Shown: positions 2,459 to 16,746 of the stretch, in pieces
Numbering within the stretch: the first letter of the stretch is position 1
How the letters are laid out: the number at the start of each line of letters is the position of its first letter
Source of the DNA: Streptomyces niveus
GTDB lineage: Bacteria; Actinomycetota; Actinomycetes; Streptomycetales; Streptomycetaceae
Length of the DNA stretch: 64,000 bases
Assembly: GCF_002009175.1 (NCBI RefSeq)
Contig: NZ_CP018047.1
Span: 1,612,001-1,676,000 of the forward strand
Direction: 5' to 3'
Notes under the pieces: model-generated
Databases searched by the model: none
Seen by the model: the letters and a program-made list of their open reading frames with translations, nothing else
What the model was told of the DNA's origin: nothing
Translations under genes and position numbers: made by a program

Positions 2459-2856
2459 CCGATCACTGTACGAGCGGACTCGACCACGCTGCGTGAGTGG
2501 GTGGTAACCACACGGCGACTCTGACAAGGGTGGGGCGTGCGGGGCAATGCGCGTCGTTTGTGCATCATTTGACGGGCCCAGCCGACGCAGAAGCGACGCG
2601 AGCAGGGAAACGCGCGATTCGCGATCCCGTCCCGGAGGCGATTCGAGAGGCAGCCGCAGGCCAGTGGTGCGAAGGGACAGGCCGCGCACCGGCCGGTTTC
2701 GGGTGCGCGTGGGCGCCGCTGTCACGAAATGCCCGGTTCGCTCGGCCGTGCGAACGTGAGGGATGTCGTTCGACCCGGACGGCAGCAGCAGGACAGGGCC
2801 GGACGGCGACCCCGCCCGCCCGGTGTTCCCGCTCTCCCCCCGCAGGAGGAGTCCCC
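2459..2856. promoter_or_regulatory. Divergent intergenic region between MerR-type regulator and fasciclin genes
   Basis: This is 398 bp of non-coding sequence between two divergent starts, so it must hold both promoters. I found no convincing coding frame and no single operator that I would defend. Just ahead of the fasciclin start there is a strong Shine-Dalgarno sequence (aggagg, about 2843-2848). Confidence 0.5.
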
Positions 2857-3474
2857 ATGAGCATCTCCCGCAACGCCCGCAGTCCCCGTTCCTCGCGCGG
2901 CTCCCGCGCCCGCCGCGCGGCGGTGGCGGCCTGCGCCGCCGTGGTCCTGCCCGTGTCCATGGGAGTGCTGGCGCCCCAGGCCTTCGCGAGCACGACCGCG
3001 ACGGATCCGTTCGGGCCCGAATGTTCGTCGCTTCCCCAGAAGGGAGCGGGCAGCGCCGCGTCCATGGCATCGCAGCCGGTGGCGACCGCCGCGTCCCAGA
3101 ACCCCCAACTGTCCGCGCTGACGGCGGCGTTGCGGCAGGCCGGGCTGGTGGACACGCTCAACAACGCGAAGAACGTGACGGTGTTCGCACCGACCAACGC
3201 CGCGTTCGAGAAGATCCCGAAGGCGGATCTCGACGCGCTGCTCGCGGACAAGGCGCAGCTGACCAAGGTCCTGACCTATCACGTGGTCGGCGAGAAGATC
3301 AGCAAGTCGCAGCTGTCCAACGGTACGTTCACGACGCTGGAGGGCGGCACGCTCTCGACGACGGGTTCCGGCTCGACGTTCAAGGTCAACGACACGGCGA
3401 ACATCGTGTGCGGCGGCATCACGACGTCGAACGCCACGGTCAACCTCATCGACACGGTGCTGATGCCGAAGTAG
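2857..3474 (+). CDS. Secreted fasciclin (FAS1) domain protein
   Basis: A 205-residue protein. An Arg-rich n-region and a hydrophobic core (residues 20-40) end at QAFA-ST (about residue 44), a typical signal-peptidase I site. Residues about 75-203 are one FAS1 domain, with the H1-type motif NVTVFAPTNAAF and the H2-type motif LTYHVV. FAS1 domains serve in adhesion or ligand binding at the cell surface; no enzyme activity is expected. The start at 2857 follows an excellent ribosome-binding site. The gene diverges from the MerR/B12-type regulator and ends at a strong hairpin, so it is probably monocistronic. Confidence 0.9.
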   Translation: MSISRNARSPRSSRGSRARRAAVAACAAVVLPVSMGVLAPQAFASTTATDPFGPECSSLPQKGAGSAASMASQPVATAASQNPQLSALTAALRQAGLVDTLNNAKNVTVFAPTNAAFEKIPKADLDALLADKAQLTKVLTYHVVGEKISKSQLSNGTFTTLEGGTLSTTGSGSTFKVNDTANIVCGGITTSNATVNLIDTVLMPK

Positions 3475-3564: not shown

Positions 3565-3583
3565 TTGGGTGAGGCAAACCTAA
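3565..3583. promoter_or_regulatory. Iron-box-like operator (DmdR/IdeR type) upstream of BlaI-M56 pair
   Basis: The 19 bases ttgggtgaggcaaacctaa match 16 of 19 positions of the actinobacterial DtxR-family consensus TTAGGTTAGGCTAACCTAA. The site ends 51 bp before the BlaI start. Placement and match suggest iron repression; the match was made by eye. Confidence 0.6.
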
Positions 3584-3634: not shown

Positions 3635-4015
3635 ATGGCTGAGGACGGCCGGGCCGCGAGGCGCCCGCACGGTGAACTCGTCGCGGACGTGCTGGCCATT
3701 CTCTGGCAGGCCGAGGCACCGTTGACGCCGCAGCAGATCAGTGACGCCCTCGGGCGGGACCTGGCCAGGACGACGGTGACGACCATCCTCGCCCGCCTGT
3801 ACGAGAAGGGGACGCTCACCCGGACCCGCGAGGGGCGGGGCTTCGCCTACGCCGCGGTGGACGACGCCGCCGGCCTGGCGGCCGGGCGCATGCGGCGGGA
3901 GCTGGAGCGTGAGCCTCGGCGTGACCTGGTGCTGAAGCGGTTCGTGTCGTCGCTGTCGGAGGGCGACGAGGAAGAACTGCGGCGCCTGCTCCTGGAGACC
4001 GGGGAGAGCGAATGA
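3635..4015 (+). CDS. BlaI/MecI-family winged-helix repressor
   Basis: A 126-residue regulator. Residues about 10-80 are a winged helix of the BlaI/MecI/CopY type (ELVADVLAILWQAEAPLTPQQ, then TTVTTILARLYEKGTLTRTREGRGFAY, recognition helix and wing). The C-terminal helices form the dimerisation part. Family repressors are inactivated by cleavage or by a partner M56 protease. The stop overlaps the start of the M56 gene by 4 bp (ATGA), so the two are translationally coupled. An iron-box-like site lies 51 bp upstream. Confidence 0.92.
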   Translation: MAEDGRAARRPHGELVADVLAILWQAEAPLTPQQISDALGRDLARTTVTTILARLYEKGTLTRTREGRGFAYAAVDDAAGLAAGRMRRELEREPRRDLVLKRFVSSLSEGDEEELRRLLLETGESE

Positions 4016-4959
4016 CCCTGGTCCTGGCCGTGGTCGTCCTGACGCTGCTACTCCCCTGGGGTGCGGCGGCTGCCACCCTCCGGGTGGCCGCGCTCCTGCC
4101 GCCGCGGGAGGCGTGCGTGGCGCTGACGGCTGCGACGGCGCTGCTGGCCGGTGGCACCGTCTCGGCGCTGATCGGTCTGTTCCATGTGCCCTTCCTGGCC
4201 TCGCTCGAACGGATACCGCTGTCGCAGTCGGCGGCCGAGTGGCCGGCCACGGTGCCGGTCGCCGTTGTCGCCGGGGCGGTGCTGGCGGTTCAGACGGTGC
4301 TGTTGCTCCGCCGCTGGTACGAGCACCGCTCGCTGCTCGCACGGGGCTGGGCCTCCACCGGCGACGCGGTGCCCGACGGCGACCTGCTGGTCGTGCCCGG
4401 CAGCGCTCCGCAGGCATTCGCGCTGCCGGGACTGCGCAAACGGAGCGGGCGGATCGTGGTGACGACCGGCATGCTCGGGGTCCTCGGCCCCGCGGAGCGC
4501 GAGGTGCTGCTCGGTCATGAACGGGCACATCTGGCGGGCCGCCATCATCTGCTGTCCGTCACCGCCTACTTGTCCGCCGCGGTGCATCCCGCGCTGCGGC
4601 CGCTGCACCGGGCGCTGGACTTCCATCTGGAGCGGTGGGCGGACGAGACGGCGGCGGAGTCGGTGGGCAACCGGCGTCTGGCCGCTTCCGCGATCGCGCG
4701 GGCGGCGCTGGCCGGCGCGGACGCCGAAGGAGGGGACGGGCGCCGCGGCCCGTTGCTCTCGGTGGGTACGGGGCCGGTCCCGCAACGGGTGCAGGCCCTG
4801 CTCCGGCCGGCGATGGTCCGGCCGCGGACACGCGGGGCGCGGGCGGCCCTGGCAGGGCTCGTGACGGCCGTGGCGGTGTCGGCGCTGCTGGGCCTGATCC
4901 TGGCTTACGGGCTGCACGAGTACGTGGAACTCGCCGCCGAGGACGTACGCGCCCGCTGA
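4012..4959 (+). CDS. M56-family (BlaR1/MecR1-like) membrane metalloprotease
   Basis: A 315-residue membrane protein. Hydrophobic segments are at about residues 2-22, 37-57 and 82-100, with a last one near 285-305. The zinc-protease motif HERAH is at 169-173, followed by RWADETAAE, the likely third-ligand region. It lacks the penicillin-sensor domain of BlaR1, like many actinomycete M56 proteins. Known relatives cleave BlaI-type repressors; here the partner is the upstream gene, overlapping by ATGA. What signal it senses is unknown; the iron-box-like site ahead of the operon hints at metal or envelope stress. Confidence 0.9.
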   Translation: MTLVLAVVVLTLLLPWGAAAATLRVAALLPPREACVALTAATALLAGGTVSALIGLFHVPFLASLERIPLSQSAAEWPATVPVAVVAGAVLAVQTVLLLRRWYEHRSLLARGWASTGDAVPDGDLLVVPGSAPQAFALPGLRKRSGRIVVTTGMLGVLGPAEREVLLGHERAHLAGRHHLLSVTAYLSAAVHPALRPLHRALDFHLERWADETAAESVGNRRLAASAIARAALAGADAEGGDGRRGPLLSVGTGPVPQRVQALLRPAMVRPRTRGARAALAGLVTAVAVSALLGLILAYGLHEYVELAAEDVRAR

Positions 4960-5077: not shown

Positions 5078-5626
5078 GTGAGCCCGGGGTCAGAGGTGAC
5101 ATCCCCCTCCCCAGCGATTGGATGCGACGTGTACGACAGGGGGAGCGGATCGTCGGGTCCCTCCGAACAGACCGTGCGTCTCCTGGCCGCCGCGGGCAGG
5201 GCCGTGGACACCTTGATGGCCGAGCGGTCGCGTGCGCGCGGGCTGAGCTACCACCATCAGCTGGTCCTGGAGACGCTGGCCGATCAGGGCCCGCACGCCC
5301 GGCGCGATCTCGCGGCGCGGATCGAGCTGCCGGTGGCCGACCTCTCACGGGCGATCGGCGATCTCGCGGCGCGGGGCCTGGTGCAGGTGATGGTCGTCAA
5401 TATCGGCGGCAGGCACGAGGTGGTGACGCTCACCCCGGCCGGTACGACGGAACTCATGGCGCTCCAGGACGACATGAAGTCGGTGCAGGACCTGTTGCTG
5501 GCATCCATCACGCGCGGTGAGCGCGCCCAACTGCACTACATACTGCGGCGGGTGTGCGCGACGGCCGCCCGTGCCGGTGCGGGGGAATCGGCTACGTCCC
5601 CGGCCCCGCCGGGTGGACCCTCGTAG
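5078..5626 (+). CDS. MarR-family transcriptional regulator
   Basis: A 182-residue protein from the longest start (GTG at 5078). Residues about 30-150 are a MarR winged helix: LSYHHQLVLETLADQGPHAR (entry helices), RRDLAARIELPVADLSRAIGDLAARGLV (recognition helix) and the wing VNIGGRHEVVTLTPAG. In-frame GTG codons at 5096 and 5129 are alternative starts, so the N-terminus is uncertain. Its 3' end overlaps the convergent ABC-ATPase gene by 35 bp. No target can be read from the sequence; the importer cluster next door is a possibility. Confidence 0.85.
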   Translation: MSPGSEVTSPSPAIGCDVYDRGSGSSGPSEQTVRLLAAAGRAVDTLMAERSRARGLSYHHQLVLETLADQGPHARRDLAARIELPVADLSRAIGDLAARGLVQVMVVNIGGRHEVVTLTPAGTTELMALQDDMKSVQDLLLASITRGERAQLHYILRRVCATAARAGAGESATSPAPPGGPS

Positions 5627-7064
5627 CCCGTCCCGAAACGGTGTCCGGTCCGCCGAGCGTGAGGATGTCGTCGGCGTGACGCGACACGAGGGCGAGGTCG
5701 TGGCTGACCAGGACGACGGCCAGGCCCCGGGTTGTCCGTAGGTCCCGCAACAGCGCCATGACGCCGGCGGCGGTCTCCGCGTCGAGCGCGGAGGTGACCT
5801 CGTCGCACAGCAGGATGTCGGGCTCGGCTGCCAGGGCGCGGGCGATGGAGACCCGTTGGCGCTGGCCGCCGGAGAGTTCGTGGGGGTAGCGGGCGGCGAA
5901 GGTCTCCGGGAGGCCGACGGCGGTGAGGAGTTCCGCGACCCGGGAGGCCCGCCGGTCGGCGGGCAGCGCGAGGTGCAGTTTCAGCGGCCGGGCGAGCGTG
6001 GAGCCCACGGTGCGGGCGGGGTTGAGGGCGCCGAGCGGGTTCTGCGGGACGAGTTGGATGCGGCGGAGCTGGTCGCGGCCGCGCCGCCGGTGGGTTCCGG
6101 TGAGCGGGCGGCCGTGGAGGCTGAGGGTGCCGCCCGTGGCCGGGTGCAGCCCTACGAGGGTGTGCACCAGCGTGGTCTTGCCGCAGCCCGAGGGACCGAC
6201 GACGGCGGTCAGGGCGCCGGGGCGTACGTCCAGGTCGAGGTCCGCGAGCACTTGGCGGCGGCCGGCCCCGGTCCCGACATGGGCAGTCAGCGAACGCACC
6301 GTCAGAACAGCTTCCTCACCACGGACTTGATGTCTGGTCGCCTGCGTCAGGTGGGTGGCGGAGTCCTCCCGGTCGGGCGCTCGGGTGGTGACCGGGCCGA
6401 GGACGAGGGTGTCGTCGGCGCAGTCGGCGACGAACCCGGGGTCGTGGCTGGCGAGGGCGATCGCGAGGCCGTGACGGTGCGCGAGGTCGCGCAGGAGGCC
6501 GGCGATCTCGTCGCGCAGCGCGGCGTCGAGTCCGGCGGTGGGTTCGTCGAGGAGCAGGATCTCGGGGCGGCGCGCGAGGGCGCGGGCGAGGGCGACGCGG
6601 CGTTGCTGGCCGCCGGACAGGGCCTGGGGGCGGCGCCGGTCCAGCCGCTCACCGGTGGGCAGCCTGACCTGTTCGAGCAGGTCGAGCAGTGCGGTACGGG
6701 ACTTGTCCGCGGATGTCTCGGTGATGAGCCGGCCCACCTTCATCCGGGGGTTGAGGCCGGACGCGGGGTCCTGGCCGAGGAAGGCCAGACGCTCGCGGCG
6801 AAGACGGCGCAGCCGTTCGGGTGCCAGGGTGAGGATGTCGTGGCCGAGGACGGTGACCGTTCCGGCGGTGACGGCCGCGTCCGGCGGTACGGCGCCGACG
6901 AGGGCGCGGAGCAGGGTGGTCTTGCCCGCGCCGGAGGGGCCGGTGACGGCGTGGACACGGCCCCGCTCCAGGGTGAGGCCGGCGTTGTCGAGCAGGGGGG
7001 TGCCGTCGGGCAGGGTGATGGACAGTGCGGTGACCCGGGCGGCGGACGGGGCGGTATGGCTCAC
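5592..7064 (-). CDS. Dipeptide/nickel-type ABC transporter, two fused ATPase domains (DppDF-like)
   Basis: A 490-residue cytoplasmic protein with two complete nucleotide-binding domains. Domain 1 has Walker A GPSGAGKTT (42-50), signature LSGGQQRR (149-156) and Walker B ILLLDEPTAGLD (169-180). Domain 2 has GPSGCGKTT (290-298), LSGGQRQR (397-404) and ILLCDEVTSALD (417-428). Separate DppD and DppF proteins are fused here, which is common in actinomycetes. The GTG start overlaps the stop of the permease gene (GTGA). Last gene of the iron-boxed importer operon; predicted to power uptake of a metal chelate. Confidence 0.9.
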   Translation of the reverse strand: MSHTAPSAARVTALSITLPDGTPLLDNAGLTLERGRVHAVTGPSGAGKTTLLRALVGAVPPDAAVTAGTVTVLGHDILTLAPERLRRLRRERLAFLGQDPASGLNPRMKVGRLITETSADKSRTALLDLLEQVRLPTGERLDRRRPQALSGGQQRRVALARALARRPEILLLDEPTAGLDAALRDEIAGLLRDLAHRHGLAIALASHDPGFVADCADDTLVLGPVTTRAPDREDSATHLTQATRHQVRGEEAVLTVRSLTAHVGTGAGRRQVLADLDLDVRPGALTAVVGPSGCGKTTLVHTLVGLHPATGGTLSLHGRPLTGTHRRRGRDQLRRIQLVPQNPLGALNPARTVGSTLARPLKLHLALPADRRASRVAELLTAVGLPETFAARYPHELSGGQRQRVSIARALAAEPDILLCDEVTSALDAETAAGVMALLRDLRTTRGLAVVLVSHDLALVSRHADDILTLGGPDTVSGRATRVHPAGPGT

Positions 7065-7909
7065 AGAGGTGTCTCCGGGCTGGGCCGGGCGGGCGCGAGG
7101 GCGTCGGCGGCGAGGTTGACGCTGATGGCGAGCAGTCCGATGGCCAGACAGGGTGCGGCCACGGCCCAGGGGTTGAGCAGGATGCCGGGGGCGTTCTCAC
7201 GGATCATCAGGGCCCAGTCGGCTTCGGGGGGTTGGGGTCCGAGTTGGAGGAAGGCGGCGATGGAGACGATGTAGACGCCTTCGACGAATCGCAGTCCGAA
7301 CAGGGCGAGGAGAGTGGCGCGGAGGTTGGGCAGCACTTCGCGGGCCATCAGGTACCAGAGTCGTTCGCCTCCGGCGGAGGCGGTTTCGACGTAACCGGTG
7401 GCTGCGATGGGGGCGGCGGCGGCCGCCACGACCCGCACGGCGTAGGGGGTGCCGAGGACGGTGGCGGCCAGGCCGACGGCCAGGCGTCCGCCGGATGGCC
7501 AGGCCAGGGCGATGAGCATGATGCCGAGCACGGCCGGCAGCAGGATGGCGAGGTCCGCGGCGCGTTCGACCCAGCGGCCGAACCGCGGGCGCAGGGCGGC
7601 GAGGATGCCGAGTGCGGTGGCGGCGGCGGTGACGGCCAGTGCGATGGCCAGGGCCGTGGCGATCAGGGGAGCGCCGCCGGACAGCAGCCGGCTGAGGACG
7701 TCGCGGCCCAGCAGGTCCCCGCCGAGAGCGGCGGTACCGTCCGCCGGGCCGTAAGGCGCGGCGAGGGGGCGGTCGATCGCGTGCGGTGCCAGCAGCGGGC
7801 CGGCCAGCGCGAGGACGAGGAGCAGCAGCGCGGGCAGCGCGCGGACCAACACTCGTGCACGGGACGGTTTTTGACGTCCGGTCATGGCGGCCGGAGCGGA
7901 AGCGGTCAT
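7061..7909 (-). CDS. ABC transporter permease, DppC/NikC-like
   Basis: A 282-residue inner-membrane permease with an N-terminal transmembrane helix (about residues 20-42), then the DppC-type binding-protein-dependent domain with about five more helices. The region ATGYVETASAGGERLWYLMAREVLPN is the EAA loop that contacts the ATPase. A GDLLGRDVLSRLLSGG segment after the first helix is a DppC/OppC hallmark. ATG at 7909 overlaps the stop of the DppB-like gene (ATGA), and the stop overlaps the ATPase start. Pairs with the upstream permease. Confidence 0.9.
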   Translation of the reverse strand: MTASAPAAMTGRQKPSRARVLVRALPALLLLVLALAGPLLAPHAIDRPLAAPYGPADGTAALGGDLLGRDVLSRLLSGGAPLIATALAIALAVTAAATALGILAALRPRFGRWVERAADLAILLPAVLGIMLIALAWPSGGRLAVGLAATVLGTPYAVRVVAAAAAPIAATGYVETASAGGERLWYLMAREVLPNLRATLLALFGLRFVEGVYIVSIAAFLQLGPQPPEADWALMIRENAPGILLNPWAVAAPCLAIGLLAISVNLAADALAPARPSPETPL

Positions 7910-8895
7910 GGGGTTGTTCCCAGTATTCGGTCGCGTACGTAGTCGGCCAGGAGCAGAAGTGTGCTGATGGCCGCACCGGTGGCGACGACGACTCCGGCGA
8001 CCAGCGGCGTGTCCCGGTCGGTGATGGCACCGGCCAGGACAGCTCCCACGCCCGGGTAGTTGAACAGGGTCTCCACGACCACGGCCCCGCCCACCAGCAT
8101 GCCGGCGGAGGTGGCGGTGGAGACCGCGACGGCGGGCAGGGCGCCGGGCAGCATGTGGTGGATAAGGATGCGGCGGCGGGGCAGGCCGTCGATGATCGCG
8201 GCCTGGACGTGCGGGAGATCGGCCTGGTCGGCGAGCGCTCCTCGTACGATCCGGCTGTTCCAGCCGATCTGGGGGATCGCGAGTGCCAGCAGTGGCAGCA
8301 CCAGCATGTCCCACGAGGCGGGCGCGCCGTCGGGGCCGGTGAGGGTGACGGCCGGGAGCCAGCCGGCCCACTGGGAGAACACCAGCAACAGGGCTACGGA
8401 GACGACGAATTCGGGCAGGGCGAACGCGGCGGTGGACGCGACGGCCACAGCCCGGTCCACCCGGCCGCCGGGGCGCAGGGCTGCCCAGCTGCCGAGGGCG
8501 AGCGCCCCGGTGATGCTCAGCGCCAGGGCGAGCGAGCCCAGAAGCAGTGTGTTCGGGAACGGCCCCGACAGGACCGAGGTGACGGGCTGTCCGTGTGCCG
8601 TGGTGCCGAGATCACCGGTGGGCAGGCCGCTGATCCAGTCCCAGAACCGTTCGGCCACCGGCCTGTCGAGACCGAGGGCCTCGCGCCGCAGCGTCGTGTC
8701 GGCCGCGCTCTCGCCGCGTTCGGAGGTGGCGTCGGCCGCGTCGCCGGGCAGGAGTTCGATCGCGGCGAAGACCGCGGCGAGCAGGAGCGCGAGCATGCCC
8801 AGCCGGCGGACCGCGAGCCGGGCGGCCCGGCCCGCTCCGGGAAGGTGACGGGCCGGGCCCGGCGCGGTGGCGCGCTCGGCGGCTGCCGGGATCAA
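7906..8895 (-). CDS. ABC transporter permease, DppB/NikB-like
   Basis: A permease of about 329 residues: N-terminal helix RLGMLALLLAAVFAAIELLPGD, a periplasmic region with the DppB-type stretch ALGLDRPVAERFWDWISGLPTGDLG, then five helices and an EAA-type loop (ADLPHVQAAIIDGLPRRRIL). The frame is open up to 9000, but a TTG at 8895 overlaps the stop of the binding-protein gene as TTGA, matching the ATGA and GTGA junctions that follow, so I prefer that start. It forms the channel with the DppC-like subunit. Confidence 0.85.
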   Translation of the reverse strand: MIPAAAERATAPGPARHLPGAGRAARLAVRRLGMLALLLAAVFAAIELLPGDAADATSERGESAADTTLRREALGLDRPVAERFWDWISGLPTGDLGTTAHGQPVTSVLSGPFPNTLLLGSLALALSITGALALGSWAALRPGGRVDRAVAVASTAAFALPEFVVSVALLLVFSQWAGWLPAVTLTGPDGAPASWDMLVLPLLALAIPQIGWNSRIVRGALADQADLPHVQAAIIDGLPRRRILIHHMLPGALPAVAVSTATSAGMLVGGAVVVETLFNYPGVGAVLAGAITDRDTPLVAGVVVATGAAISTLLLLADYVRDRILGTTP

Positions 8896-10451
8896 CGGGC
8901 CAGCCAGGTCTTCTCGAGCTGGACGCGGCCGTAGCCGGGAAGCTCGGGCAGATCGCGTACGGCCGCCCCAGCGAGATCGATGCCGTCCGCCATGCCCCAC
9001 AGGAGATATCCGGACTCGGCGAACTCGATCTCCTGGAGGCGGTGCAGCGCCTTGCTCCGCTCGGCCTCGTCCGCGTCCCCGATCGCCTTGCGGTACGCCG
9101 CGTCGAAGGTGGGTTCCTGCCAGCCGGCCTCGTTCTGTCCGGCCTCGGAGACCATGGTCTTGGAGGCGAAGAACACCACGGAGTCGTTGGTGCCCCAGTA
9201 CGACGTGTACAGCGGGGCCTTGAGCCAGGTGGCGTCCCAGAAGATCTTCGAGTCCTGCTTCACCACATTGATCTTCACCCCCGCTTCGCGGGCCTGGGTG
9301 GCGAACAGCGTCGCGGATTCGGCGAGACCGGAGATGTCCTCGCTGGTGAGCAGGTCGTAGGTCTTGGAGGTGTCGAACCCGGCCTCCGCGAGCAGCTTTC
9401 TGGCTTTGGCGAGGTCGCGCCCGCGCTGCGGGATGTCCTTGGCGAACCGCGGGTCGCCGGTGCCCAGGATGTCGTTGGCGACGGTGCCGTAACCGGACAG
9501 GACCTGCTTGACCATGGCGTCGCGGTCCACCGCCAGCCGCAGCGCCTCACGTACCCGCGCGTCCGCGAACGGGCCGTCGGCGGTGCGCATGACGATGGGC
9601 ATCGCCATGTCGTTGGGCCTGCGCAGGATCTGGACGTCCTCGCGGGTCTCGGCGGTGCGGGCCGCGACGGCGCCGACGTTGGAGGCGACGTCGATCTGGC
9701 CGGCGAGCAGGGCGTTGGCCATCGCCTGCGGGCTCTCGAAGATACGTACCTCGATGGCGTCGAGCAGCACTTCGCCGCCGTACCAGTCCTCGTTGCGCAC
9801 GAGACGGGCGTTGCCGTCGCGGAACCAGTCCAGTTTGAACGGCCCCGTGCCGGGCGCGTCGGCCAACTGGTCGTCCTTGGTGCCCTTCTTCATCACGAAG
9901 GTGGTCAGCCGGGTGAGCAGGGGCAGTTCGGCGTTGGCGTAGTCGGAGACCAGGACCACGGTCCCGGCGTCCTCGGCGGTGATTCCCTCGGGCTTGATGC
10001 CCGGCAGCCGGGAGGCGCCTGCGGGGGTGGCCCGCAGCCGCTTCAGCGACCAGACGACGTCGTCGGCGGTGACGGGGGTTCCGTCGTGGAACTTCGCGCC
10101 GTCGGCTATGACGAAGCGCCAGGTCTTCAGGTCTTCGGAGGACTTCCAGCTCGCGGCCAGTCTGGGCGCGGTGTTGGCCTTCGCGCCGGGCACCGCCAGG
10201 GTGTCGTACACGAGGCTGAGGATCAGGTAGTCGCTCTCGTTGGACTGGGTGCCGTGCGGGTCGCGGGTGACCGAGGACGCCTTGCCCAGCGCGCCGACCT
10301 TCAACGTGCCGCCGCTGCGGGGCGGTCCGGAGTCCGCCCCGGAGGACGCCGTGTCCTTCGATCCGTCCGGTCCACCACTGCAGGCCGCGAGCGCTCCGGC
10401 CGCACCGATCCCGGCACCGGCCCACAGCAGCTGTCGTCTGGTGACGCCCAC
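8892..10451 (-). CDS. Family 5 extracellular solute-binding lipoprotein (DppA/NikA-like)
   Basis: A 519-residue protein. The signal contains a Tat-like TRRQLL and lipobox LAAC (Cys24), so it is probably a lipoprotein on the outer face of the membrane. The body is SBP family 5: GGTLKVGALG, then VTADDVVWSLKRL and GTGPFKLDWFRDGNARLVRNEDWYGG, all typical. Family members bind peptides, nickel, heme, opine metallophores and metal-EDTA. Start is GTG at 10451. A DmdR/IdeR-type box ends 31 bp upstream (10482-10500), and the gene diverges from the SbnA/SbnB-like biosynthetic operon. Inferred ligand: the metal complex of that operon's product. Confidence 0.9.
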   Translation of the reverse strand: MGVTRRQLLWAGAGIGAAGALAACSGGPDGSKDTASSGADSGPPRSGGTLKVGALGKASSVTRDPHGTQSNESDYLILSLVYDTLAVPGAKANTAPRLAASWKSSEDLKTWRFVIADGAKFHDGTPVTADDVVWSLKRLRATPAGASRLPGIKPEGITAEDAGTVVLVSDYANAELPLLTRLTTFVMKKGTKDDQLADAPGTGPFKLDWFRDGNARLVRNEDWYGGEVLLDAIEVRIFESPQAMANALLAGQIDVASNVGAVAARTAETREDVQILRRPNDMAMPIVMRTADGPFADARVREALRLAVDRDAMVKQVLSGYGTVANDILGTGDPRFAKDIPQRGRDLAKARKLLAEAGFDTSKTYDLLTSEDISGLAESATLFATQAREAGVKINVVKQDSKIFWDATWLKAPLYTSYWGTNDSVVFFASKTMVSEAGQNEAGWQEPTFDAAYRKAIGDADEAERSKALHRLQEIEFAESGYLLWGMADGIDLAGAAVRDLPELPGYGRVQLEKTWLAR

Positions 10452-10481
10452 GTCGTCCTCGTTTCAGGAAGCAGAAGTTAC

Positions 10482-10500
10482 TTAGGTTTACCTATCCTAA
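10482..10500. promoter_or_regulatory. Iron box (DmdR/IdeR type) of importer operon
   Basis: The 19 bases ttaggtttacctatcctaa match 15 of 19 positions of TTAGGTTAGGCTAACCTAA, with intact outer arms ttagg and cctaa. It ends 31 bp before the lipoprotein start, placed to block transcription when iron is plentiful. Confidence 0.7.
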
Positions 10501-10658
10501 GTTTTGACACTTCCACAACCCGTCCGGCGCGATCCGGAAGGCGGCCGACAGTACCTGATGAGCCGTCAATTCCTTTACTGGCCTGCGGAGTTGGGATTCA
10601 GGGGCGTCACGCGCAGACCGGCGGAGTGACCGACGACACAATTGTAGACGGTTCTGCC

Positions 10659-10676
10659 GGTAAGGCTTGCCTTACC
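10659..10676. promoter_or_regulatory. Iron box-like palindrome of biosynthetic operon
   Basis: ggtaaggcttgccttacc is a near-perfect 18-bp palindrome, broken only at the two central bases. It aligns with the inner 16 positions of the DtxR-family consensus at about 12 of 16. It lies 155 bp upstream of the dioxygenase gene. Confidence 0.6.
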
Positions 10677-10830
10677 CCCGCGTCGTTGTTAGCTTCCTCG
10701 ATGTCCGGCCGCCAGACCCGCGCCGGACCCGGACCACTTCTCGGTTCCCTCCACCACCCATGCCTTCGCCGGGCCGCGCCACCGCCGTGCGCCCGCACTC
10801 CCACCTGCCCACGCAACGGAAGGTGCCTCC

Positions 10831-11817
10831 GTGCCCACCGCAGCCCCGGTACGCCGGCTCGACGCCGGCCATGTCACCGAACTCACCGCCGTCGCGGCCG
10901 AACTGCTGGACCTCCACGCCTCGGCCACCAGCCCCGCCCTGCTCGCCGACCTCGCCCCCGTCTGCCGGCGGCTGAGCCCGGGACTGCGCGAGGCGCTGCG
11001 CCCCGTGGAGACCGCCGACGGCCTGTTCGTGCTGCGCGGACTGAGCGTCGACGACGCCGAACTCGGCCCCACCCCCGGCCACTGGTCCACCGTAGGCCGG
11101 GCCGGCGCCCGGTGGGACGTCGTCCTGCTGCTTGTCTCCACGCTGATGGGCACACCCATCGCGTGGGACGGCCAGCAGGACGGCCGCTTCGTCCACAACA
11201 TCGTCCCCTCGCCGGGACAGGAGACGGTGCAGATCGGCGCGTCCAGCAGCGTGCTGCTGACCCCGCACACGGAGGACGCCTTCCATCCCGGCCGCGCCCA
11301 TCTGCTGTTGCTGTGCTGCATGCGCAACCCCGGCCGCGTCGCCACGACCGCGGCCAGCATCCGCCGTACGCGGCTCTCGGACGACGACCTCGCCGAACTG
11401 GCCCTGCCGGTCGCCCCGATACTCCCCGACGACGCCTACGCGGACGCCCAGCGGTTCGGCGGCAGGCCCGCCCCCGTGCCGACGCTTCACGCGGGTGAGG
11501 AGGGCCTGAGCCTGCGTTTCGACCCCGCGTACACCCCGGTCGAGGAAGCCGGGGAGTCCTGGCGGGCGGCCTACGGACGGCTGGAGGACGAACTCGCCCG
11601 CGTCTCCGTCGCGGTGAGCCTGGAGCCCGGCGACGTACTCGTGGTCGACAACGACATGGTCGTGCACGGCCGCGTGCCCTTCACCGCCCGCTACGACGGC
11701 ACCGACCGCTGGCTCAAGCGCGCCTCCGTCCGGGTGCCCGGCCGCCGTACGCGCCCCGCGTCCGAGGCCGCCGAGCACGGCTACGGGCAGGCCGCGATCG
11801 AGGCCTTCGCCTCCTGA
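10831..11817 (+). CDS. Fe(II)/2-oxoglutarate-dependent dioxygenase, VioC/AsnO (clavaminate synthase-like) type
   Basis: A 328-residue enzyme. The facial triad is visible: His146 and Glu148 in TPHTEDAFHPGRAHLL, a signature of L-arginine/L-asparagine hydroxylases such as VioC, OrfP and AsnO, and distal His279 in VVDNDMVVHGRVPF. Arg293 or Arg297 would bind 2-oxoglutarate. Relatives hydroxylate the beta carbon of a free or carrier-bound amino acid. GTG start at 10831 with ggaagg 8 nt upstream. First gene of the iron-boxed operon with SbnB-, decarboxylase-, SbnA- and MATE-like genes. It likely hydroxylates an amino-acid precursor or the finished chelator, perhaps adding a metal ligand. The substrate is inference. 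Confidence 0.9.
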   Translation: MPTAAPVRRLDAGHVTELTAVAAELLDLHASATSPALLADLAPVCRRLSPGLREALRPVETADGLFVLRGLSVDDAELGPTPGHWSTVGRAGARWDVVLLLVSTLMGTPIAWDGQQDGRFVHNIVPSPGQETVQIGASSSVLLTPHTEDAFHPGRAHLLLLCCMRNPGRVATTAASIRRTRLSDDDLAELALPVAPILPDDAYADAQRFGGRPAPVPTLHAGEEGLSLRFDPAYTPVEEAGESWRAAYGRLEDELARVSVAVSLEPGDVLVVDNDMVVHGRVPFTARYDGTDRWLKRASVRVPGRRTRPASEAAEHGYGQAAIEAFAS

Positions 11818-11870
11818 ACCGACCTGAACCCGCCGAACCCGCCGAACCCGCCTCCCGAAGGGACACCCCC

Positions 11871-12860
11871 ATGACCTCCCACGACGGCACCCTGCGCGTC
11901 CTGAGCACCAGCGACCTCGCCGGGATCGACATCTCCCTGGCCGATGTCGTGCACACCGTGGAAGGCGCCTACCGCACCCTTCACGCCGGCCACTCCGACA
12001 ACCCCCGGAAGCTGACCGTCAAGCCGCCGGACGGACACTCCGTCTCCTACGCGATGCTCGGCCGCGACGGCACCCGCGACGTCGTCGCCATCAAGACCAG
12101 CTACAAGCACGGCCTCGACAAGTCCCGTGACGAGCAGCACTACTACACGTCCCTGACGATCTACGACGACGTCACGGGCCTGCCCGTCGCGATGATGGAC
12201 TGCTCCCGCATCGGCTCCCTGCGCACACCCGCCGTCTCCGCCCTCATCGCCCGCGAGTGCGCGCGCCCCGGCGCCCGTTCCGCCCTGGTGATCGGCACCG
12301 GCACCCAGGGCCGCCTCGCCCTGCCGTTCATGCTGACCACCCTGCCCGGTCTCGAACGCCTGATGGTCTTCGGCACCCACTCCGACGGCATCGCGGCCGT
12401 CCGCGCCGAGTTGCGCGCCCACTTCCCCGACCGGGAGGTGGAGATCGTCACCGACGTACGGGCCGCGGCCCACGACGCGGACATCGTCGTCGCCACCGCG
12501 GGCGCCCACACCCCCGCCGCCGTCGAGTCGGACTGGCTCGAACCGGGTGCGCTGTCGATTCTCGTCGGCCACGGGCTCGCCCCCTCCACCCTGCACCGCG
12601 CCGACCGCGTCATCGCCACCAGCGAGGCACAGATGAACGTCACCGGCACCGACATGGCGGACGACGAGGGCGAACTCCCGGCCGTCGACACCGAGTTCCC
12701 GCCCGTGCTCGCCGGCCTGACCGCCGGCCGCCACCACGCGGAGGAACGGATATTCGCCTACAACAGCGGTCTGGTCGTCACCGACATCGCCCTCGGCCAC
12801 CGATTCGCCCAGCTCGCCCTCGCCCGGAACCTGGGCACCGAGGTGGCGCTGTGGAAATGA
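11871..12860 (+). CDS. SbnB-like dehydrogenase (ornithine cyclodeaminase family)
   Basis: A 329-residue protein of the ornithine cyclodeaminase/mu-crystallin family, with the Rossmann NAD motif VIGTGTQGRLA at 140-150 preceded by MDCSRIGSLRTPAVSALIAREC. In staphyloferrin B synthesis SbnB is an NAD-dependent dehydrogenase that oxidises N-(1-amino-1-carboxyl-2-ethyl)-glutamate, releasing 2-oxoglutarate and L-2,3-diaminopropionate. An SbnA-like gene two positions downstream supports this role over lysine or ornithine cyclodeamination. The stop overlaps the next gene by ATGA. It might equally act in the reductive direction, joining an amine to a keto acid. Confidence 0.88.
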   Translation: MTSHDGTLRVLSTSDLAGIDISLADVVHTVEGAYRTLHAGHSDNPRKLTVKPPDGHSVSYAMLGRDGTRDVVAIKTSYKHGLDKSRDEQHYYTSLTIYDDVTGLPVAMMDCSRIGSLRTPAVSALIARECARPGARSALVIGTGTQGRLALPFMLTTLPGLERLMVFGTHSDGIAAVRAELRAHFPDREVEIVTDVRAAAHDADIVVATAGAHTPAAVESDWLEPGALSILVGHGLAPSTLHRADRVIATSEAQMNVTGTDMADDEGELPAVDTEFPPVLAGLTAGRHHAEERIFAYNSGLVVTDIALGHRFAQLALARNLGTEVALWK

Positions 12861-14254
12861 CCGGCGCCGCCACCGACTGGCCCACCGTGCCCGTACTCCC
12901 CGATCCGGCGACCGGCGCCGTCCTGGCGAGCGGGCTCCTGCACGAACTCGCCCACGCCTTCGGCGGGCCGTTCCACTTCCTGCTGCCCGACGCCTTCGAC
13001 GCCAACCTGGCCGCGATGCGCCGCACCCTGGCCGAAGCGGGCGTCGACGGCTTCGTGTACTTCGCGAAGAAGGCCAACAAGGCCGCCGTGTTCGCCGAAC
13101 GCGCGGCGGCCGGTGGCGCGGGCGTGGACGTCGCCTCCGCCGCCGAGCTGCGGGAAGCGCTCGGCCACGGCGTACGCGGCGAACACCTCGTCCTGACCGG
13201 CCCGGCCAAGGACCCCGGTCTGCTGGAACTGGCCGTGCGGCACGGCGTACTGATCGCAGTCGACTCCCCCGGTGAACTCGACACCCTCATCGGCCCGGTC
13301 GCGCATGAGGCGCTGCGCCCGGCCCGTGTCCTGCTGCGCGTGATGCCCCCGGCGCAGCCACACAGCCGCTTCGGCATGAACGACGCCGAGCTGGCCACGG
13401 CCCTCGCCCGGTGCGCCGAGGCCGGGAACACCGTACGGATGGAAGGCTTCAGCTTCCATCTCTCCGGTTACGCGATCCAGCCCCGCGCCGACCTCGCCGC
13501 CCATCTGACGGACCTGTGTCTCGAAGCCCGTGCCCGGGGCCTGGACGCCGACCGGATCAGCGTCGGCGGCGGCCTGCCGATCAGCTACACCGACGCCGAC
13601 AGCTGGCGCGCCTACCTGCAAGGGCACGACAGGCGCCACTTCCACGCGGGCAAGTCCTTCCGGGCCGCCGACTTCTACCCGTACCACTGCGACGAGCCCG
13701 GCGCCGAGGCCCTGGCCGCACTTCTCGCCGCCCGGCCCGAAGGGCGCGACCACGCTCTCGCCGACATCCTCAAGAGCGCCGGCGTCACTCTGCTGCTGGA
13801 GCCCGGCCGCGCGCTGCTCGACCGGGCCGGGGCGAGTGTCTTCACCGTCCAGGGCGTCAAGGACCGCGACGGCTACCGGCTGATCACGGTGGACGGCACC
13901 AGCCTGAGCCTGTCGGAACAGTGGTTCAACAGCGAGTACCTGCCCGACCCGCACCTCGTCCCCCGCGACCCGCACGCCCCGCATGTCCCGGATACGACGC
14001 CCGACCCGGCGGGCCCGTATCCGGCGAGCGTGGGAGCCGGCACCTGCCTGGAATCGGACATGCTCACCTGGCGCAAGATCGGCTTCCCCCGCCCGCCCCG
14101 TACCGGTGACCTCCTCGTCTACCCCAACACGGCCGGCTACCAGATGGACTCCAACGAGTCCCGCTTCCACGACCTCGCCGTCCCTCCCAAGGTCGTCATC
14201 GACCGCACCGACGGCGACCGGCCGCGCTGGCGGCTGGACCGTCACTTCAGCTGA
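12857..14254 (+). CDS. Fold-type III PLP-dependent decarboxylase (SbnH / DAP-decarboxylase-like)
   Basis: A 465-residue member of the alanine-racemase-fold decarboxylases. The PLP lysine region is VYFAKKANKAAV (Lys72 probable), followed by GVDVASAAELREAL. The C-terminal GTCLESDMLTWRKIGFP and NTAGYQMDSNESRFH correspond to the Cys/Asp active-site and PLP-closing segments. SbnH decarboxylates a citryl-diaminopropionate intermediate; other relatives act on diaminopimelate or ornithine. Since there is no NIS synthetase here, the substrate may be diaminopropionate, or an N-linked adduct of it, giving an ethylenediamine unit. The ATG at 12857 overlaps the upstream stop. Confidence 0.88.
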   Translation: MTGAATDWPTVPVLPDPATGAVLASGLLHELAHAFGGPFHFLLPDAFDANLAAMRRTLAEAGVDGFVYFAKKANKAAVFAERAAAGGAGVDVASAAELREALGHGVRGEHLVLTGPAKDPGLLELAVRHGVLIAVDSPGELDTLIGPVAHEALRPARVLLRVMPPAQPHSRFGMNDAELATALARCAEAGNTVRMEGFSFHLSGYAIQPRADLAAHLTDLCLEARARGLDADRISVGGGLPISYTDADSWRAYLQGHDRRHFHAGKSFRAADFYPYHCDEPGAEALAALLAARPEGRDHALADILKSAGVTLLLEPGRALLDRAGASVFTVQGVKDRDGYRLITVDGTSLSLSEQWFNSEYLPDPHLVPRDPHAPHVPDTTPDPAGPYPASVGAGTCLESDMLTWRKIGFPRPPRTGDLLVYPNTAGYQMDSNESRFHDLAVPPKVVIDRTDGDRPRWRLDRHFS

Positions 14255-14294
14255 CGCGCACACCCCCACACCCCCCGACCTCCTGGAGTCAACG

Positions 14295-15323
14295 ATGCCC
14301 GGAGCCCTTCAGCGGCCCGCCGTGGTCACCCGCGTGTCCGAACTCATCGGCCGCACCCCCCTGCTGGAGCTGGCCGTCACCGAGACCGGCAGCCGTCTCC
14401 TGCTGAAGCTGGAGATGTACAACCCCACCGGCACCGCGAAGATCCGTATGGCCCGCGCCATGATCGACGCGGCCGAGGCAGCGGGTGAACTGCGGCCCGG
14501 CGGCCGGATCGTCGAGTCCACCTCCGGCAACACCGGCCTCGGTCTCGCCGTCGTCGCCGCCGAGCGCGGCTACACCTTCACCGCCGTCGTCGACAACCAC
14601 GCCTGCGCGGACAAACTCCGCGGCATGAAGGCGCTCGGCACCGAACTCGTCCATGTCGTGGACGAAGGCACCGAAGAACTCGCCACCGCCGCCCGCGAGG
14701 AACTCGCCGAGGAGATCGCCCGCGGCCAGGACAACACCGTCTTCACCGAGCAGCACAACAACCCCGCCAACGGCGTCGGTTACTTCCCTGTCGCCCACGA
14801 GCTGGCCGAAGCCCTCGACGGGAACCTTGACGTGCTGATCGCCGCCGTCGGCACCGGCGGGGCCCTGTTCGGCACCGCCCGTGAGCTGCACAGGATCGCC
14901 GGCGGGTTCACCGTCATAGGCGTGGAGCCCAAGGGATCCATCGCCTTCGGCGGCCCCGCCCACGACTACTACCAGTCCGGCACCGGCACCCCCGAGGGCG
15001 CCGAACTCGGCGCACTCGTGGACTTCGGCCTCCTGGACGAAGGGGTCAAGGTCGGCGACGTCGAGGCCTTCGCCACCTGCCGCGCCGTCGCCCGCACCGG
15101 ACTGCTCATCGGCGGCTCCGCGGGCGGTGTCGTGTACGAGGCCCTGACCCGGCTGTCCGCCCTGCCGCCGGGCAGCACTATGGTCGCCCTGGTCAACGAC
15201 GGTGGCGAGAAGTACCTGGACACCGTCTTCGACGACGACTGGATGCGCGAACGCGGCCTGCTCAGTGCCGAGGCCGAGCACGAGGTCGATGAACTGCTCA
15301 CCAAACTCCGCGGGAACCGATAA
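14295..15323 (+). CDS. SbnA-like PLP synthase (cysteine synthase family)
   Basis: A 342-residue fold-type II PLP enzyme. The PLP lysine is probably Lys49 in NPTGTAKIRMA, where CysK has SVKDR. The pyridoxal-binding loop STSGNTG is at 75-81 and a glycine-rich phosphate loop GTGGALFG follows. SbnA uses O-phospho-L-serine and L-glutamate to make N-(1-amino-1-carboxyl-2-ethyl)-glutamate; the operon pairing with an SbnB-like gene points to that chemistry and not to cysteine synthesis. The amine donor could be glutamate or aspartate. Start ATG 14295 with ctggag upstream. Confidence 0.88.
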   Translation: MPGALQRPAVVTRVSELIGRTPLLELAVTETGSRLLLKLEMYNPTGTAKIRMARAMIDAAEAAGELRPGGRIVESTSGNTGLGLAVVAAERGYTFTAVVDNHACADKLRGMKALGTELVHVVDEGTEELATAAREELAEEIARGQDNTVFTEQHNNPANGVGYFPVAHELAEALDGNLDVLIAAVGTGGALFGTARELHRIAGGFTVIGVEPKGSIAFGGPAHDYYQSGTGTPEGAELGALVDFGLLDEGVKVGDVEAFATCRAVARTGLLIGGSAGGVVYEALTRLSALPPGSTMVALVNDGGEKYLDTVFDDDWMRERGLLSAEAEHEVDELLTKLRGNR

Positions 15324-15327
15324 GCCC

Positions 15328-16746
15328 ATGCCGTCCACCCTGCTGCGCGACAGCCGCGCCCTCGGCGTCCTCGCCGTACCCCTGATCCTCACCCAGCTCG
15401 CACAGGTCGCCCTGACGACCACCGACACGGTGATGATGGGCCTGCTCGGGACCACCGAACTCGCCGCCGGCGGCCTGGCGATCGTCATCTTCAACCAACT
15501 GCGCACCATGGGCGTCGGACTGGTCACCTCCGTCGGCAATCAGACGGCCGCCGCCGCGGCCCGCGCGGAACAGCGGGCGGTCAAGGACACCGCCGGCCCG
15601 GCAGCATCCGCCCAAGAGGACGCGGCACCCGACGACGTACGGGCGATCGTCCGGGCCGCCCTGGCCGTGGCCACCCTCGCGGGCATCGTCGGCGCCGTCC
15701 TGATGATCCTCGTCGGCCGGGCACTGCCCTGGCTCGGCCAGGCCCCGGCCGTCGTCGACCTCGCCCAGACCATGCTCTACGCCCTCGCCCCCGGGCTGCT
15801 GCCGTGTCTGTGGTTCCAGGCCCTGAGGCAGTTCACCGTCGGTATGCGCCGCCCGCAGGCACTCCTGCGGATCACCATCGCCTCGGTCGCCGTGAACGCG
15901 GGCCTGAACTGGGTCCTCATCCATGGCACCTTCGGTCTGCCCGAGCTCGGGCTGACCGGTGTCGGGACCGCCACCTCGACCGTCTACCTCCTGACCTTCG
16001 CCGCCCTCTACCTCGCGGCGAAGAAGGACAGCGAACTCGCGCCCCTGCTCTCCCTGAACATCACCAAGGCCGACCCCGAAGTCGTCAAGCGCCTGGTCGG
16101 CCTCGGCATACCCATCGCCGCGACGTACGGCTCCGAGGCCGGCTTCTTCTCGGTCACCGCGCTCATGGCGGGCTCCTTCGGGCCCGACGCCCTCGCCGCG
16201 CACACCGCCGTCAACCAGCTCGTCTACATCGTCTTCCAGGTCGCCGTCGGCCTCTCCCACGCCGCGTCCATCAACGTCAGCCGCGAACTCGCCCTCGGCG
16301 ACCACGGCGCCGCCCGCCGCATCAAGAACACCGCGCTGGCCTGCGCCGCCGCCGTCATGACCCTCGTCGGCGTCCTGTACGTGACCGTGCCCCGCCTGGT
16401 CCTCGCCCCGTTCCTCGACACCGGCTCCGACCAGGCGCTGGGCATCGCCACCCAACTCCTCGTCGTCACCGCCCTGCTCCAGTTCTTCGACTGTGCGCAG
16501 AACATCGGTGTCGGGCTGCTGCGCGGTCTCGACGACACCAGGGGCGGCTTCCGCATCACCCTCATCGGCTACTGGGCGGTCGGGCTGCCCGCCTCCTGGC
16601 TCCTCGCGCACGCGCTCCGACTCGACACCCTCGGTATCTGGCTCGGCCTCCTCACCGGCCTCGCCACCACGGCGGTCCTCCTCCTGCGCCGCTACACCCG
16701 TTCCCTCGACCGGCTGGAAGCCGCCGAACTCCCCGCGACCGCCTGA
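15328..16746 (+). CDS. MATE-family efflux transporter
   Basis: A 472-residue protein with about 12 predicted transmembrane helices in two repeats. The N-terminal LAVPLILTQLAQVALTTTDTVMMG is the typical MATE opening, and GVGTATSTVYLLTF and QNIGVGLLRGLDDTRGGF are further MATE-like stretches. A hydrophilic loop (about residues 72-105) separates helices 2 and 3. MATE pumps export cationic or zwitterionic small molecules using ion gradients. It starts 5 bp after the SbnA-like gene and closes the operon, so it is the probable exporter of the metallophore. The stop codon lies inside a long hairpin. Confidence 0.92.
   Translation: MPSTLLRDSRALGVLAVPLILTQLAQVALTTTDTVMMGLLGTTELAAGGLAIVIFNQLRTMGVGLVTSVGNQTAAAAARAEQRAVKDTAGPAASAQEDAAPDDVRAIVRAALAVATLAGIVGAVLMILVGRALPWLGQAPAVVDLAQTMLYALAPGLLPCLWFQALRQFTVGMRRPQALLRITIASVAVNAGLNWVLIHGTFGLPELGLTGVGTATSTVYLLTFAALYLAAKKDSELAPLLSLNITKADPEVVKRLVGLGIPIAATYGSEAGFFSVTALMAGSFGPDALAAHTAVNQLVYIVFQVAVGLSHAASINVSRELALGDHGAARRIKNTALACAAAVMTLVGVLYVTVPRLVLAPFLDTGSDQALGIATQLLVVTALLQFFDCAQNIGVGLLRGLDDTRGGFRITLIGYWAVGLPASWLLAHALRLDTLGIWLGLLTGLATTAVLLLRRYTRSLDRLEAAELPATA

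Follow-up and report, generated by a model that had tools for sequence, protein, structure and literature searches.

Which metallophore do two divergent, iron-boxed operons of Streptomyces niveus make, and is the system a new one? The locus lies in a window of 64,000 bp (the whole stretch of DNA that was analysed; positions 1,612,001-1,676,000 of contig NZ_CP018047.1 in the 8.0-Mb genome), where nine genes fill positions 5592-16746 (11.2 kb). It is probably an aminopolycarboxylate siderophore locus of the EDHA (ethylenediaminesuccinic acid hydroxyarginine) type, a reading based on sequence comparison to which we assign a probability of about 0.92. The system is already known: its gene set matches the EDHA cluster of other Streptomyces, published as BGC0002567, gene for gene, such that the finding is real but not new. 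The first-pass annotation of this DNA had proposed that a hydroxylated siderophore resembling EDDS (ethylenediaminedisuccinic acid) is made, exported and re-imported. This appears right in kind, as reported for the orthologous EDHA cluster; the novelty that it implied did not survive. The siderophore class is a published one, frequent in Streptomyces and also found in other actinomycetes and in a Burkholderiaceae strain, which settles the finding. Side points are the family-5 (NikA-class) siderophore importer, sequence-based hints at the unproven order in which EDHA is assembled, and a sister lineage whose product is likely to differ.

Nine genes and their counterparts in the EDHA cluster

An importer operon of four genes on the minus strand is divergent from an enzyme and exporter operon of five genes on the plus strand, and every reading frame is open at its coordinates:

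5592..7064, minus: fused double ABC ATPase, NikD/NikE-like (PF00005 in two stretches; under the NCBIfam NikE cut-off, among the best 25 of 199 models)
7061..7909, minus: NikC-like ABC permease (PF00528)
7906..8895, minus: NikB-like ABC permease (PF00528; start uncertain, TTG at 8895 or upstream up to 9000)
8892..10451, minus: family-5 substrate-binding protein (PF00496, 260 bits; N-terminus Tat-lipoprotein-like by eye)
10482..10500, no strand assigned: IdeR/DmdR-type iron box (16/19 against TTAGGTTAGGCTAACCTAA) in the divergent intergenic region
10659..10676, no strand assigned: weaker second box GGTAAGGCTTGCCTTACC (8-base inverted arms around TT; best 19-base match 12/19)
10831..11817, plus: VioC-like Fe(II)/2-oxoglutarate dioxygenase of TauD/VioC type (PF02668)
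11871..12860, plus: dehydrogenase resembling SbnB and ornithine cyclodeaminase (PF02423; best PDB match the SbnB chain 4m54)
12857..14254, plus: fold-III pyridoxal phosphate (PLP) decarboxylase, LysA/ODC-like (PF02784; LysA chains in PDB)
14295..15323, plus: SbnA-like PLP beta-replacement enzyme (PF00291)
15328..16746, plus: MATE exporter (PF01554; TIGR00797, 190.4 bits against a cut-off of 147.4)

For the NikB-like permease the searches used position 8898, which is not a start codon. The gene families named by the first-pass annotation were correct at family level according to Pfam, and the nine frames were open as it had stated; its finer labels held in part. Considering at most the best 25 NCBIfam models per protein, the MATE exporter alone of the nine reached a cut-off (TIGR00797, a broad subfamily). 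The SbnA-like and SbnB-like proteins had SbnA and SbnB as their best models with 224.7 of 349.95 and 97.3 of 326.9 bits, so that these labels stand for the family but not for the equivalog. Both also stayed under the listed cysteine-synthase and ornithine-cyclodeaminase cut-offs, and thus did not prove to be ordinary enzymes of these kinds, the outcome that the annotation had named as fatal to its proposal. "SbnH-like" was right for a fold-III decarboxylase but not for SbnH: the 35 PDB matches were LysA, ODC and similar chains, with no SbnH-named chain among them. The dioxygenase, with 217.5 of 418.6 bits for VioC and 243.1 of 345 for GntD, matched OrfP, NapI, CmnC and VioC chains in PDB.

EDHA is reported in citing papers to have been described originally by Spohn in 2018 (Metallomics 10:722). 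An excerpt of a study on Streptomyces scabiei (PMC8914351) gives the EDHA cluster of this species as 11 kb, from scab_5231 to scab_5311, with its whole transcription raised on cello-oligosaccharides, and states that antiSMASH missed it. In steps of ten these limits comprise nine tags, in agreement with the nine genes and 11.2 kb found here. In S. scabiei 87.22 (L083) the nine genes are all present, arranged and oriented as in the window. Protein identities are 55% for the ATPase, 68 and 63% for the permeases, 77% for the binding protein, 70% for the dioxygenase, 76% for the dehydrogenase, 61% for the decarboxylase, 75% for the SbnA-like enzyme and 69% for the MATE exporter. The same order and orientation of nine genes was found in Streptomyces sp. 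MA5143a (L092), the reference strain in a Burkholderia paper, an excerpt of which calls EDHA an iron-responsive aminopolycarboxylic acid siderophore (PMC10702961). The divergent intergenic region with iron boxes is likewise shared with the EDHA cluster, and no qualitative difference from it was found. According to an excerpt of a genome-mining paper, EDHA is listed as BGC0002567, and of the 1,450 windows counted, which span 24 genera, Streptomyces contributes 597 (PMC11888242).

From a search of named genomes with a decarboxylase alignment, we used the best 80 of 315 relatives. The nine genes stood in order in 64/80 loci and the five plus-strand genes in 73/80. The 16 loci with less than the full nine comprise 12 that are shortened by contig ends and four with full flanks (L030, L096, L058 and L106). 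Catalytic motifs were well kept: the SbnA-like enzyme has the PLP lysine Lys49 and the ESTSGNTG loop in 78/78 rows, and the decarboxylase has AKKAN and C...D in at least 79/80. The decarboxylase has its closest match among the named genomes in Streptomyces antimicrobicus (75%).

Several points weigh against the EDHA assignment. The scab tags were equated with L083 by size and tag count. No importer match was found beside the operon in L030 and L096, and the importer search in L058 gave a binding-protein match only. A box scan of L030 yielded nothing above 12/19, as did that of L106, and L106, within the same 80 loci, carries a dioxygenase of another type.

The best-surviving alternative is an EDHA orthologue whose product is a variant with another amino-acid partner or another hydroxylation position. 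The decarboxylase is only 61% identical to that of S. scabiei, its tree places the window in a different subgroup from S. scabiei and MA5143a, and related loci vary in their dioxygenase. Since the window has the dioxygenase signature of the S. scabiei type as well as its charge-switch residues (see below), we consider such a variant unlikely.

Two full nine-gene clusters on separate contigs were seen in Streptomyces cinnamoneus JCM 4633 (L050/L077), and likewise two full clusters in Streptomyces sp. DSM 15324 (L068/L070) and Streptomyces sp. SAJ15 (L074/L088).

Iron boxes and comparison with other metallophores

The boxes were scored against TTAGGTTAGGCTAACCTAA as the IdeR/DmdR-type motif. On both strands of the window, 13/19 or more was reached at two places only, 3565 and 10482, each with 16/19. 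Boxes on both sides had been claimed for the two operons; one strong box bears this out, the other is weak at 12/19, and both lie in the shared intergenic region. Orthologous intergenic regions gave a best match of 14-18 of 19 in 74/74 cases, compared to scores of at least 14/19 in 1/1480 mononucleotide shuffles, which preserve single-base composition only, and in 0/74 reversed regions. These 74 loci have both divergent genes, at a distance of 100-900 bases. The other six are L096, with a 16/19 site, L030 and L106, with nothing above 12, and L067, L085 and L097, which are shortened.

The site at 3565-3583 comes after a fasciclin-domain gene (2497-3474) and is upstream of genes for a BlaI-type repressor (3635-4015, PF03965) and an M48 peptidase (4012-4959).

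The conserved boxes fit an iron-type control. In a scan for a Zur-like site, the best match in the window's intergenic region was 8/15, which 190/200 shuffles reached. As the boxes are iron-type and the Zur-like match is no better than chance, a zinc signal is not supported.

The window contains no match to IucA/IucC (PF04183) or to the condensation domain (PF00668); outside it the genome has two loci with four IucA/IucC matches between them, as well as 33 matches to the condensation domain. A system without nonribosomal peptide synthetase (NRPS) or NRPS-independent siderophore (NIS) synthetase, as initially described, is thus correct for the window, with both types encoded elsewhere in the genome. 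This bears on the idea that the SbnA/SbnB-like pair supplies 2,3-diaminopropionate to another pathway and that the other genes are incidental. SbnA and SbnB are indeed the best NCBIfam models and NRPS genes do exist elsewhere, but the scores are far under the cut-offs, five genes stay in order in 73/80 loci, and the 12/394 genomes that have the decarboxylase are the ones with the dehydrogenase (see below), such that this is highly improbable. A viomycin-type pathway, in which the arginine hydroxylase is linked to an NRPS, does not fit either, for want of PF00668 in the window.

Equally improbable is a metallophore for zinc, nickel or another metal, of EDDS or staphylopine type, instead of an iron siderophore. 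In its favour, the importer class includes NikA and CntA, and the EDDS of Amycolatopsis is, according to an excerpt, under zinc/Zur control (PMC9252823). The iron-type boxes and the chance-level Zur match argue against it, and so do the scores of the binding protein, 84.5 of 800 bits for CntA and 113.5 of 393 for NikA.

Known systems share parts of the locus. Staphyloferrin B (sbn) has the SbnA-like, SbnB-like and fold-III decarboxylase families in common with it, but is joined by NIS synthetases. We rejected it as the product because PF04183 is lacking in the window and the SbnA and SbnB cut-offs are missed, in agreement with the earlier remark that the product cannot simply be staphyloferrin B. 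The staphylopine system (cnt) shares the family-5 binding protein and the Nik-type ABC importer. The nine proteins stay under its CntA, CntC, CntD and CntF cut-offs, however, and nicotianamine-synthase-like and opine-dehydrogenase genes are not among the nine according to Pfam. Staphylopine was rejected on the CntA score. [S,S]-EDDS (aes) of Amycolatopsis japonicum belongs to the same aminopolycarboxylate class and arises by related small-enzyme chemistry; EDDS lacks hydroxyarginine. Its zinc/Zur regulation differs from the iron-type boxes here, and an EDDS identity was rejected, or at least lowered, as the scan of the window's intergenic region gave no Zur-type site above chance.

Excerpts of a 2026 survey name Peripla_BP_2 as the primary siderophore binder of Gram-positives; in its count of siderophore clusters from five genera, Peripla_BP_2 stands at 6,023 and SBP_bac_5 at 221 (PMC13293324). 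With their family-5 binder, EDHA loci thus represent a minority importer type.

Dioxygenase pocket and proposed pathway

We compared the dioxygenase with VioC, whose iron ligands and arginine side-chain contacts served as the reference, in an alignment of 77 rows (the window and 76 loci). VioC Q137, H168, E170, D268 and H316 correspond to Q115, H146, E148, D231 and H279 of the window, invariant in 77/77. The iron ligands and the Q137 and D268 equivalents are thereby shared with the arginine hydroxylases VioC, OrfP and NapI. With Asp231 at the position of D268, the window enzyme should be able to accept an arginine side chain. It differs from VioC by Pro145 in place of W167 (75/77), Gly154 for Y176 (72/77), His157 for D179 (75/77) and Ala233 for D270 (77/77). 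The last change means little, since OrfP and NapI also lack D270. At the positions of Pro145 and Gly154, OrfP, NapI and VioC have Trp and Tyr. The replacement of both residues suggests a pocket opened for an N-substituted arginine, i.e. hydroxylation after assembly.

The following pathway can be proposed; both its step order and the substrates assigned to the enzymes are inferred. When iron is short, a DmdR/IdeR repressor would leave the intergenic boxes and both operons would be expressed. An amino acid, in all likelihood arginine, would be coupled through its amino group to an activated serine (probably O-phosphoserine) by the SbnA-like enzyme. A succinate arm of four carbons would be attached by the SbnB-like enzyme, probably in a reductive step with oxaloacetate, and the decarboxylase would remove the serine-derived carboxylate to leave the ethylenediamine bridge. 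The arginine part would be hydroxylated by the dioxygenase, probably post-assembly. Finally, export would fall to the MATE protein, and the iron complex would return through the family-5 lipoprotein and the associated ABC transporter. A free diaminopropionate intermediate lacks support because the SbnA and SbnB cut-offs are missed. A literature search on the enzymology of the EDHA pathway returned no matching paper.

Distribution and a hydroxylase-free sister lineage

Among 61 relatives a decarboxylase match at 1e-40 was found in 15. The 60-68% type was confined to the genome itself and six of 36 other genomes of the genus, the others being paralogues of about 33-37%. In an even sample of the class (394 genomes) the decarboxylase was present at 1e-70 in 12 and the dehydrogenase at 1e-35 in the same 12. 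Distant decarboxylase/SbnA-like pairs of other Streptomyces (about 30-35% identity; L112-L116) were set aside after their contexts had been looked at in L113 and L115. In the former (8662-11528) the SbnA-like protein is fused to a rhodanese domain, and in the latter (8765-12877) the pair adjoins a class-V aminotransferase; these two pairs probably serve another pathway.

In another actinomycete family (f6, 301 genomes) the decarboxylase was found at E <= 1e-60 in 39 genomes with 43 matches. We inspected 20 of the 43 places (4 + 16), a non-random choice from the top, the bottom and double-copy genomes. Twelve had the dioxygenase, seven lacked it (L108, L122, L123, L124, L125, L126 and L131), and L120 was in between, with a match of 31% over 173 residues only and no active-site pattern. 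All 12 full f6 dioxygenases have the proline, and at position 154, where G, L, D, Q or R stands, Tyr does not occur. Three of the seven hydroxylase-free copies share a genome (G645, G512 and G670) with a dioxygenase-bearing copy (L132, L133 and L134). In trees, where L120 was labelled as dioxygenase-bearing, a branch separates the seven from the rest for the dehydrogenase (98/95) and, not strongly, for the decarboxylase (79/89). For the SbnA-like enzyme six of the seven group (97/98), as L108 has a different SbnA-type gene.

Charge was compared at columns that show a single residue throughout the sister lineage and a different one in at least 95% of dioxygenase-bearing rows. The SbnA-like enzyme, the SbnB-like enzyme and the decarboxylase together have 20 such differences. 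Charge rises at four of them, E135R (SbnA-like), D261R (SbnB-like), F357K and S432K (both decarboxylase), and falls at none. When seven dioxygenase-bearing f6 loci were taken as a control clade, these enzymes yielded 14 columns, with one rise and one fall in charge. For the MATE exporter 6 columns showed no charge change in the sister lineage, compared to 16 in the control with one up and one down. Four up against none down is weak statistics, and the SbnA-like protein shifts as a whole, too (median net charge -2 in the sister lineage versus -17). As three enzymes gain positive charge at otherwise fixed positions, the partner may have switched from the cationic arginine to an anionic one, perhaps giving an acidic, EDDS-type product.

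Zur scans gave 13/15 for L126 (maximum of 100 shuffles 11), 11 for L122 (maximum 11) and 9 each for L108, L123, L124, L125 and L131 (maxima 11, 11, 11, 11 and 12); the hydroxylase-bearing L132 scored 11 (maximum 10).

From these data a broader picture can be drawn, which we offer as tentative. EDHA loci would be one branch of a modular metallophore family in which co-ordinated charge switches, spread over three enzymes, altered the amino-acid partner. The hydroxylase-free branch, which at least three genomes carry alongside an EDHA-type copy, would make a different and more acidic metallophore. In the EDHA branch arginine would enter first and be hydroxylated only after assembly, by a VioC relative with an opened pocket.

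Within the sister lineage, the importer genes of L124 and L131 lie ahead of the operon and share its strand. Among dioxygenase-bearing loci, a complete importer beside the operon was not found in L110, L111, L132 and L133. The SbnA-type gene of L108 (4337-11694) is nearest staphylococcal SbnA in PDB; this locus adjoins a divergent multicopper oxidase and a transposase, and a link to copper is possible.

Several flanking open reading frames have no Pfam match, part of them probably in the wrong frame. In the window, a weak MarR-like protein (5078-5626; PF12802, 24.5 bits, cut-off 27) overlaps the 3' end of the importer operon by 35 bases.

An EDHA-like operon was also seen in a Gram-negative, the Burkholderiaceae strain Trinickia dinghuensis (L106, 5490-13808). 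Its dioxygenase shares 32% identity with that of the window and carries the Trp and Tyr; its best matches are NapI and VioC. The remaining enzymes and the MATE exporter are 50-63% identical. Neither an importer match nor an iron box scoring at least 14/19 was found at the locus. In place of the ABC importer, a gene for a TonB-dependent receptor stands ahead of the operon, which would be expected if a metal chelate is taken up across the outer membrane.

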